A stretch of 35,899 nucleotides of DNA, taken from NCBI GenBank assembly GCA_949319575.1, contig CASGHD010000047.1, forward strand, positions 1 through 35,899, in the 5' to 3' direction. Source of the stretch: an uncultured Anaerolineales bacterium. GTDB taxonomy: Bacteria; Chloroflexota; Anaerolineae; Anaerolineales; Villigracilaceae. Under the pieces are notes generated by a model. It was not told where the DNA came from. It searched no databases and saw nothing but the letters and a program-made list of their open reading frames with translations. This document shows positions 19,167-32,615 of the stretch, in pieces; within the stretch, counting starts at the first letter, position 1; each line of letters opens with the position of its first letter. The position numbers and the translations under genes are program-made.

Positions 19167-19256
19167 GACAATGGACGATAGACGATAGACGATGGACGAT
19201 GGACGATGGACGATGGACAGTGAATCATCGTCAATAGCCTGCGTCCATAGTCGTTG
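19167..19256. repeat. Intergenic palindrome with tandem GGACGAT(A/G)GAC(G) units, copy 4
   Basis: ATGGACGATAGACGATAGACGATGGACGATGGACGATGGACGATGGACAG is an array of 7- to 10-nt words, followed by a short right arm (AATAGCCTGCGTCCATAGTC). It is the longest left arm of this family in the window and lies in the divergent region between adenosine deaminase and the selenoprotein candidate. Confidence 0.8.
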
Positions 19257-19359
19257 TATTTTACCCCGCCATGTTCAACGCGGCGATGCGAGGCTTCGTC
19301 AAAGTAAGATATGCGGCGGGAGACAAGTCTATGCGTTGGATTAAACCAGAAAGGTAAAC

Positions 19360-19968
19360 ATGGATTTCAAACTGACCATCTTCTCCGATTACATCTGACC
19401 ATGGTGCTATGTCGGCCAGGGTGTGGTCGAGAGGTTGAAAGAAGAATACCAAGTGGACGTGGAGTGGCGTCCGTTCTATTTGTATTTCGATACGCCGCCT
19501 GAAGGAAGAGAACTGCCCGAACATGTGACGCGCGCCCGCGCCAACGGTTCGGAGGAGCGGCTGGCTTCCATCGCTGGGATGTATGGGATACCATTTCGCT
19601 CGACGGACCGGGTCTACAACACGCGCCTCGCCCACGAAGCGACGGAATATGCGCGCGCGCATGGCGCGGGAAGCGAGTTTCACAAAATTATTTTTCGCAA
19701 AGTGTATGCGGAGGGATGTGACCCGAGTCAATGGGAAACGCTTCGCTCGGCGGCGGAGGAAGCAGGCTTGAACGCGGACGAAATGCAGCGCGAGGTGGAA
19801 AGCGAAAAATACACGGCGGACGTGGCGGATAAAGTGCGCTGGGCGTATCAGATCGGCGTGACGGGTGTGCCAACGTATGTGATCAACGACCGTTACGCGA
19901 TTGTCGGCGCGCAGCCGTATGAAGTTTTCAAGGACGCGCTGGAGAAGATATTGAAAGAAAAGAATTGA
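19360..19968 (+). CDS. FrnE/DsbA-family thiol oxidoreductase, candidate selenoprotein (in-frame UGA at codon 13)
   Basis: An ATG at 19360 with AGAAAGGT 4 nt upstream opens MDFKLTIFSDYI, then TGA (19396-19398), then PWCYVGQGVVERLKEEY and an uninterrupted frame to a TGA at 19966-19968: 202 residues if the first UGA is read. Family members carry CPWC at this point (SDxxCPWCYIG), so the UGA stands exactly at the first active-site Cys, giving Sec-Pro-Trp-Cys. The rest of the thioredoxin-like fold is intact, with the cis-Pro loop TGVPTYVI near residue 172. Thirteen nt after the UGA, TCGGCC / GGTCGA (19412-19417 and 19425-19430) form a 6-bp stem with the loop AGGGTGT, in the position and style of a bacterial SECIS. 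Conventional gene calling would start at a Met-like codon at 19423 and lose the active site. The alternative is a one-base nonsense mutation of TGC/TGT. No sel genes are in the window. Confidence 0.82.
19396..19430 (+). promoter_or_regulatory. Candidate bacterial SECIS element (recoded UGA plus stem-loop)
   Basis: UGA at 19396-19398, 13-nt spacer, stem UCGGCC/GGUCGA (one G-U pair), 7-nt loop AGGGUGU containing GGU, comparable with the loop of the E. coli fdhF SECIS. The hairpin lies wholly within the coding frame, as bacterial SECIS elements do. Confidence 0.65.
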
Positions 19969-20083
19969 TTACCTTACACTTTCAAAATCGGGACGCTGAT
20001 TCACGCTGAAAACGCAGATTTTTCTTTTTGAATCAGCGAAATCAGCGTTTTTCAGCGTCCAAAAAGGCTTGTGTAAGGTAATC
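19967..20083. repeat. MITE-like element with 13-bp terminal inverted repeats, copy 1
   Basis: GATTACCTTACAC (19967-19979) and GTGTAAGGTAATC (20071-20083) are exact inverted ends. Between them lies an inner imperfect hairpin, GGGACGCTGATTCACGCTGAAAACGCAGATTTTTC / TGAATCAGCG..AATCAGCG..TTTTTCAGCGTCC. The left end overlaps the stop codon of the selenoprotein candidate. A related element is at 32473-32581, and an inner-hairpin-only copy is at 30068-30135. No target duplication is seen. Confidence 0.8.
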
Positions 20084-29814: not shown

Positions 29815-30180
29815 CGTGGCTGTAGCAAAGTCCGCCCATGTCACCCTCCCGAAGAACATCGGGACGATGTGAAGGAGCGCGATTTTCAGCGACCGAGGGG
29901 TCTCAGGCATGGTAGAGATGTTTCGCTTCGCTCAACATGACATGGCTAGGTCAAGCAACTTTGCTACGACCATAGGGTCAAGTAGTAGAGAATTATGACC
30001 TGGGCAGTTGTGCTACCCGCCAACCGCGCAAGTTATAAGAGTGTTTCTTGATTCACTCCAAAGGACATAGATGAAAACGCTGATTGCCGCTGATTCAAGA
30101 AAGAAAAATCTGCGTTTTTCAGCGTGAATCAGCGTCCCATTTATTTCGGATAGAGTCTATTGTGTATTGTCGGAAAAATT
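29815..30180. repeat. Intergenic repeat island between phnD and the lipid-kinase gene
   Basis: The 553-bp gap 29716-30268 contains no supportable gene. It holds a degenerate CATGTCACCCTCC...AACATCGGGACGATGTG...CGCTTCGCTCAACATGACATG palindromic tract (about 29835-29945) and an inner-hairpin copy of the MITE-like family at 30068-30135 (AAAACGCTGATTGCCGCTGATTCAAGAAAGAAAAATCTGCG / TTTTTCAGCGTGAATCAGCGTCCC). Confidence 0.6.
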
Positions 30181-32310: not shown

Positions 32311-32479
32311 GGTTACCTGTAACTACTCAGCCTGGGAACATGTCGCTGCGAGGCGCTCTTGGTTTTGCCGAAGCAGTCCCCCAACGACGGGAGATTGCTT
32401 CGTCAGGACCCCGAAAAACATCGGGGCAGGGGGGGCAAGAGCCTCCTCGCAACGACATGCCTGAGTAGTTACGGTTACC
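32311..32479. repeat. GTCGTTGCGAGG-family element with extra 19-20 bp outer arms, copy 3
   Basis: GGTTACCTGTAACTACTCAG (32311-32330) and CTGAGTAGTTACGGTTACC (32461-32479) are inverted with one indel-type difference. Inside are the ATGTCGCTGCGAGGCGCTCTTG..GAAGCAGTC and GGGAGATTGCTTCG...CTCCTCGCAACGACAT arms of the family. The right outer arm is shared with the next element. Confidence 0.75.
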
Positions 32480-32581
32480 TTACACAATGGTTTTGGGACG
32501 CAGATTCACGCTGATTCAAAAGGAAAAAATCTGCGCTTTCAGCGTGAATCAGCGTCCTGATTTTGAAAGGATAAGGTAATC
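32473..32581. repeat. MITE-like TTACCTTACA element, copy 2
   Basis: GGTTACCTTACAC at the left end and ATAAGGTAATC at the right end are diverged forms of the 13-bp ends at 19967-20083. The inner hairpin is GGGACGCAGATTCACGCTGATTC..GGAAAAAATCTGCG / CAGCGTGAATCAGCGTCC. Together with the preceding element and the degraded palindrome it forms a 430-bp repeat island in the 463-bp gap before the TPR gene. Confidence 0.75.
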
Positions 32582-32615
32582 AAGCTAATTCTTTAGTTTT
32601 GGGGTTAGTCATGTT

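Follow-up and report, generated by a model that had tools for sequence, protein, structure and literature searches.

The window, by which we mean the whole stretch of 35,899 nucleotides analysed, carries a gene that very probably encodes a DsbA-family, FrnE-like thiol/selenol-disulfide oxidoreductase with selenocysteine (Sec) at an in-frame UGA, codon 13. Sec would be inserted there through SelB and a hairpin downstream of the codon, the terminal UGA would stop translation, and in the predicted cycle Sec13 attacks, Cys16 resolves and an outside reductant resets the enzyme. Comparison with relatives at the sequence level establishes that the UGA is conserved, that the hairpin is under selection and that the Sec machinery is present. 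An earlier note, made from the letters alone, had proposed a candidate selenoprotein at this place, and the machinery, the conserved UGA and the constraint and covariation of the hairpin support that reading.

Gene, reading frame and predicted product

The features of the gene are as follows.

19348..19354, + strand: ribosome-site-like, purine-rich AGAAAGG upstream of the ATG (read directly)
19360..19968, + strand: complete CDS of a predicted Sec-containing DsbA/FrnE-like protein, 202 residues with U13 (Pfam DSBA match; 74 orthologous loci)
19396..19398, + strand: in-frame UGA, putative codon for selenocysteine 13, which opens the UxxC motif (of 74 orthologous loci, 70 have TGA and 4 TGC)
19405..19407, + strand: codon of the putative resolving Cys16 of U-P-W-C (Cys in 74/74 orthologous loci)
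19412..19418, + strand: 5' arm of the SECIS-like stem, UCGGCCA (pairing and covariation)
19419..19423, + strand: apical loop, GGGUG (second base, 19420, is G in 145/150 distinct Sec sequences)
19423..19425, + strand: GTG start of the mechanical ORF list, a decoy inside the hairpin (ORF list)
19424..19430, + strand: 3' arm of the stem, UGGUCGA (pairing and covariation)
19870..19872, + strand: codon of Pro171 in a G-V-P-T loop (Pro in 73/74 rows, the other row being a gap; invariant in the 30-sequence alignment)
19966..19968, + strand: TGA as the normal stop of the gene (translation; orthologue frames)

From ATG 19360 the frame reaches TGA at codon 13 (19396-19398) and continues for 189 further sense codons before the stop. 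With the UGA read as U, the product is MDFKLTIFSDYI-U-PWCYVGQ..., with U13-P-W-C16 as the active site; the codons directly 3' of the UGA encode P-W-C-Y-V, and the TGA stands where DsbA/FrnE-like proteins have their first active-site Cys. The earlier note had described exactly this position, a ribosome site and an ATG 12 codons upstream and an intact frame downstream, and sequence, frame and the 74-locus alignment agree with it. A loose Shine-Dalgarno-like motif (AGG, GGA or GAG), sought 4-16 nt before the codon lying 12 codons ahead of the UGA, was found in 62/69 Sec orthologues.

The window protein matched Pfam DSBA (PF01323) at 134.6 bits (cut-off 25.6) and no NCBIfam model above its cut-off. 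By sequence, the best solved relative was FrnE of Deinococcus radiodurans (5cnw, 6.5e-24, residues 4-201), whose C-P-W-C aligns with U-P-W-C. An AlphaFold2 model built from a 30-sequence alignment (mean pLDDT 95.6, pTM 0.90) has a strand at 3-9, a helix at 14-29 that starts right after U13, and Pro171 just before a strand at 172-175; we take this proline to be the counterpart of the thioredoxin-fold cis-Pro, and both its role and its cis conformation are assumed. The translation has, besides C16, a single Cys (residue 120, present in 5/74 rows) and lacks the C-terminal CXXXXC that many FrnE proteins have. No signal peptide is visible by eye in the translation, and the protein is probably cytosolic.

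Ordinary annotation had been expected to start at 19423 and hide the active site, and the mechanical ORF list does begin at GTG 19423, giving 181 aa. Taken at face value, that entry would make the upstream codons a leader to a protein devoid of the active site. However, codons 2-12 keep their amino acids while their synonymous codons vary (T6, I7, S9, D10 and Y11 in 69/69 Sec copies), such a start would remove the first strand and the UxxC of the predicted fold, and the GTG itself lies within the hairpin, so we consider a true start there extremely improbable.

Conservation of the UGA codon among orthologues

Orthologues were sought in 150 genomes of the same family, 140 of which had some match at E up to 0.001. 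The ortholog set comprises 74 loci in 71 genomes with E below 1e-50, all of which were read. Here too the expectation of UGA or Cys at codon 13 across relatives was borne out (TGA 70, TGC 4), and the homologues do not decay downstream of the UGA: 73/74 loci keep the frame for at least 187 codons from codon 13, the only broken one being a fragment, L097, which was excluded from the codon-entropy count described below but still figures among the 74 loci and in the tree. The frames end in TAA (40), TGA (18) or TAG (16), the TGA set including both the window gene and the broken L097. UGA therefore still terminates in this group, the window gene included, where it is very probably read in two ways, at codon 13 and at the terminal stop.

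If this were an ordinary Cys FrnE gene hit by a nonsense mutation or misread in sequencing, or a pseudogene, a single in-frame stop would be the trace to expect, and the assembly is in 227 contigs. Yet the same TGA is found in 69 other orthologous loci, which makes a base-call error very unlikely; codons 2-12 and the downstream frame are conserved in all but L097, and the freeze on synonymous change is confined to the hairpin. We give this explanation almost no credence. The orthologue evidence contradicts it, and we rejected it; reassignment of the code (see below) and the start at GTG 19423 were rejected too.

Two other observations were made among these sequences. Two family loci in different genera, L061 (G031) and L091 (G074), encode an identical protein, which suggests recent transfer or binning contamination. 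Outside the orthologous group, a more distant FrnE-like gene with U-P-F-C (L054 in G047, L056 in G082) has TGA at the same codon.

A SECIS-like hairpin under selection

The stem-loop predicted by the earlier note was found starting 13 nt after the UGA, with a GGU-containing loop (GGGUG, 5 nt) as claimed; its stem has 7 bp rather than the 6 proposed. With a 5-nt loop, 7 bp and 20 nt from UGA to loop, it falls within published bacterial SECIS constraints, which in one description call for 3-9 nt in the loop, 4-16 bp in the stem, G at the first two positions of the loop, a distance of 16-37 nt between UGA and loop, and an MFE of at most -7.5 kcal/mol (PMC13188914). Folding energies were -11.7 kcal/mol for a 47-nt stretch and -12.1 kcal/mol for a 45-nt stretch, the latter no better than chance when compared with shuffles (z -0.93; 43/200 shuffles as good). 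Folding energy was thus rejected as proof of a SECIS (z -0.93), and because hairpin energy alone is not significant the case is carried by comparative data.

The first of these is codon usage. Over codons 18-23 (VGQGVV), the mean normalised codon entropy in 69 Sec copies was 0.115, versus 0.757 in 79 other conserved columns; in 200,000 random draws of six columns, a value as low as 0.115 never came up. Codon 19 is GGC and codon 22 GTG in 69/69 Sec copies, and codon 18 is GTC in 67/69. Judged by these synonymous sites, the hairpin is under selection in the Sec copies, with six codons nearly fixed at synonymous sites only while the UGA is kept.

Stem pairing and covariation across phyla

The DNA pattern D-[YF]-[IV]-UGA-P-W-C-[YF], compared with genome contigs, retrieved at least 118 stretches, which are not a fair sample of taxa; the pattern does not reach the stem and so did not favour sequences that can form it. 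Among the 118 listed loci, 117 match the window protein in blastp at E below 1e-5 and L107 just misses (1.25e-5); 108 keep the frame for at least 150 codons, 7 run off the fetched stretch, and the frames of L107, L142 and L158 end early inside the contig, so that a few loci may be decaying or misassembled. Record titles among the listed matches include deltaproteobacteria (Desulfobacterales and others), Acidobacteria, Planctomycetes, SAR324, Alpha- and Gammaproteobacteria, Myxococcales and Chloroflexi.

Adding 16 Sec loci from the phylum search to the listed loci gave a wider Sec set of 133 stretches, or 118 once those identical over 38 nt were counted as one. Pairing was found in 92.7% of stem cells, against at most 43.2% in slid controls and a mean of 75.9% (at most 78.1%) in 500 shuffles; 111/118 distinct stretches have at least 6 of 7 pairs and 7/118 pair at fewer than 6. 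In the 37 distinct Sec stretches of the family the figure rose to 96.9% (slid at most 46.7%), with at least 6 of 7 pairs in 37/37. The Cys set comprised 27 stretches, 25 distinct (the four family copies, L053, L055, 20 fetched sequences and L231, a copy of L050). As it was not matched for relatedness and its members are mostly more distant than the Sec copies, it serves as a rough control; the close one is provided by the four Cys copies of the family. Its distinct members paired at 59.4% of stem cells, above their own slid values (28-49%, at most 49.1%), and 5/25, L049 among them, pair at 6 or 7 positions. The second loop base was G in 145/150 distinct Sec versus 7/25 distinct Cys sequences.

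For covariation we used 19 Sec sequences, the window's and 18 chosen for spread. They paired at 96.2%, with a covariation score of 0.600 versus 0.239 in shuffled and at most 0.130 in slid alignments, and 24 cells were changed on both sides; for each of these measures 0/500 shuffles were as high. The other two of the five measures, pair count (253/500) and pair types (146/500), did not go beyond shuffles in this set. In these alignments the pairs of the hairpin covary across phyla, and the same architecture turns up from phylum to phylum: 7 bp beginning 13 nt after the UGA, with G conserved at the second loop position.

Selenocysteine machinery

The assembly that contains the window (3.65 Mb, 91% complete, 227 contigs) has the selA, selB, selC and selD that the selenoprotein reading had called for, all above their curated cut-offs: selB 336 bits (cut-off 242), selA 547 (268), selD 341 (125) and tRNA-Sec 63.4 (47). 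ARAGORN also called the tRNA locus as tRNA-SeC with anticodon tca (UCA). The same cut-offs were exceeded in 14 control genomes by selB in 2, selA in 1, selD in 2 and tRNA-Sec in 5, which makes the tRNA-Sec score alone the least specific. At gathering scores, Rfam gave no match in the window or the selB locus, and ARAGORN found no tRNA in the window. The selD of this genome (L010, G000:C161:8791-9723) has an in-frame TGA of its own, in TCAG-U-ASK, and is itself a probable selenoprotein.

Among the 71 genomes with orthologous loci, selA was over its cut-off in 70 (the exception, G136, is TGA-bearing and had no selA match) and tRNA-Sec in 63, which leaves 8 without it in a run that used stricter filters; assembly gaps or filters are the likely cause of the missing matches. 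Family-wide, the cut-offs were passed in 140 (selA) and 133 (tRNA-Sec) of the 150 genomes. Since the machinery is nearly universal in the family, its presence or absence cannot discriminate, and a codon-level contrast was used instead.

The frame would be open whatever residue were inserted, so the UGA might be read as Cys, Trp or another amino acid by a near-cognate or suppressor tRNA, or have been reassigned in the lineage. Reassignment conflicts with the TGA that ends 18/74 orthologous loci, the window's included (as well as the broken L097). The residue aligns with the catalytic Cys, all four family loci without TGA have TGC instead, and both the hairpin and the Sec machinery are present. 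Such readings are very improbable, if marginally less so than a mutation or the GTG start, and we retain Sec as the residue at codon 13.

Probable changes from Sec to Cys

The four Cys copies of the family come from genomes (G071, G104, G139, G144) that all have selA and tRNA-Sec over the cut-off. Codon 19 is GGT in 4/4 of them and codon 18 is never GTC. Cys copies lacking the codon constraint in genomes that kept selA and tRNA-Sec thus constitute a natural control. In the tree, which was made from proteins only, is midpoint-rooted, leaves several forks open and places long-branch rows unsurely, they fall at three places among the Sec copies: L049 beside L046 (100/95), L050 with L051 (100/99) and L040 within a 21-row group with otherwise TGA (98/85). 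We read this pattern as three putative Sec-to-Cys changes, in each of which the codon constraint imposed by the SECIS was lost. In L049, which is on a short branch, 6/7 pairs are possible, but the 47-nt stretch folds at only -3.4 kcal/mol.

In a second DsbA-like gene of the same genome (G000:C173:22167-22838, - strand; L052/L275), a TGA in frame again takes the place of this active-site Cys, in WEWAEYY-U-PWCYVAAVRL, and the product has a C-terminal CCGEGC. Ten loci of this type were read (TGA 7, TGC 3). Two relatives, L102 and L105, match Pfam DSBA and no NCBIfam model, and the gene may represent a little-described Sec-DsbA branch.

Proposed mechanism

In bacterial Sec insertion, SelB, GTP and Sec-tRNA-Sec act at a hairpin, an established mechanism. 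By analogy, SelB on the hairpin just 3' of the UGA would bring Sec-tRNA-Sec to codon 13, and the terminal UGA would terminate. In DsbA/FrnE chemistry one residue of the site serves as nucleophile and the other as resolving thiol. Selenocysteine would accordingly be the attacking residue of the U13-P-W-C16 site, directed at a disulfide or similar oxidised sulfur of a substrate, and the mixed Se-S bond would then be resolved by Cys16. Since the protein lacks the C-terminal CXXXXC found in D. radiodurans FrnE, we infer that the oxidised enzyme would be reset by an outside reductant. Sec in the protein, the redox direction, the location and the partners are likewise predicted from the gene and its relatives, with the redox role taken from homology.

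DsbA-type C-P-x-C sites are often oxidising, and the same selenoprotein might not be a cytosolic reductase but act mainly to oxidise or isomerise protein disulfides. Against this, no signal peptide was seen by eye, no DsbB-like gene was present among 7 nearby ORFs scanned, and a review gives FrnE proteins as predicted to be cytoplasmic and drFrnE as a proposed disulfide reductase (PMC8945050). Though unlikely, an oxidising role keeps roughly a one-in-four place beside the cytosolic reductase that we favour.

Gene surroundings give no partner. The adenosine deaminase-like gene upstream and the glycosyltransferase-like gene downstream are both on the other strand, Pfam found no redox partner in the 7 nearby ORFs, and the selenoprotein gene stands alone. 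A MITE-like element (window 19967-20083) starts at the stop codon of the gene and has perfect 13-bp inverted ends, GATTACCTTACAC. It has 43 matches in the genome, itself included, some partial or split, and two further ones are in the window (30074-30142 and 32472-32583). Upstream of the gene is a tandem array (19167-19218) of 7.4 copies of the 7-bp unit GACGATG.

Known relatives

Publications on DsbA-like UxxC selenoproteins go back to 2005, and the window protein belongs to this already described type, an established family that the earlier note does not mention. We take COG2761 to be the FrnE group. A Sargasso Sea table, in the portion available, lists DsbA-like, COG2761, UXXC with 9 sequences (PMC1088965). 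Excerpts of that and two later papers describe the same features, PF01323, a UxxC with Sec for the first Cys and a SECIS-like stem-loop after the UGA (PMC1088965, PMC9312934, PMC13188914), the last two listing DsbA-like UxxC as PF01323. Compared by description, these published examples revealed no difference of kind from the window protein. Another paper counted 4 DsbA-like selenoproteins and 3 selenoproteins in Chloroflexi, and one of its figure legends deals with remnants of SECIS-like structures in FdhA and HesB-like protein sequences that have Cys (PMC1794560). Related literature also includes PMC12013277, likewise in excerpt. The main text of PMC13188914 contains no word beginning with "anaerolin" or "chloroflex", and in the open-licence PMC literature we found no paper devoted to this Sec-DsbA/FrnE protein in Anaerolineae.

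D. radiodurans FrnE (5cnw and others) is homologous over residues 4-201, with C-P-W-C at the same place. The window protein differs from it in having Sec for the first Cys and in lacking the C-terminal CXXXXC, which matters for drFrnE regeneration and is absent from some FrnE proteins, according to the accessible part of PMC8945050. Eukaryotic FrnE/DsbA selenoproteins with Sec, as here, are described for algae and primitive chordates, and in chordates Sec replaces the upstream active-site Cys as it does here (PMC6627142, PMC2874816, PMC3965025, in excerpt). In the same excerpts, however, the eukaryotic SECIS is outside the coding region, whereas the window gene has a bacterial-type hairpin inside it. 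The Rcas_1661 family (seleno)lipoprotein (NF041057), a thioredoxin-like selenoprotein family, showed weak similarity (38.7 bits), far below its cut-off of 190 bits and over residues 90-196 only, and is named a lipoprotein.

Implications for the family

The finding opens no new kind of system. It does show how a widespread redox protein loses its active site in annotation when start codons are called in a simple way. The 70 UGA and 4 TGC orthologous loci amount to a natural experiment on the requirements of a bacterial SECIS, and with the recurring stem they make SECIS rules and the cost of a Sec-to-Cys change directly testable. A more tentative suggestion, to which we give rather less than even weight, concerns the family itself. 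Members of this Anaerolineae family, the window's genome among them, can have a diverged second Sec-DsbA (EYY-U-PWC) alongside the Sec-FrnE, and Sec-FrnE would have turned to Cys at three places in the tree despite kept Sec machinery, losing the SECIS codon constraint each time. Sec at this site may thus be a tunable trait of one protein, ecologically selected according to the supply of selenium or oxygen, and not a side effect of whether the machinery is present or lost.
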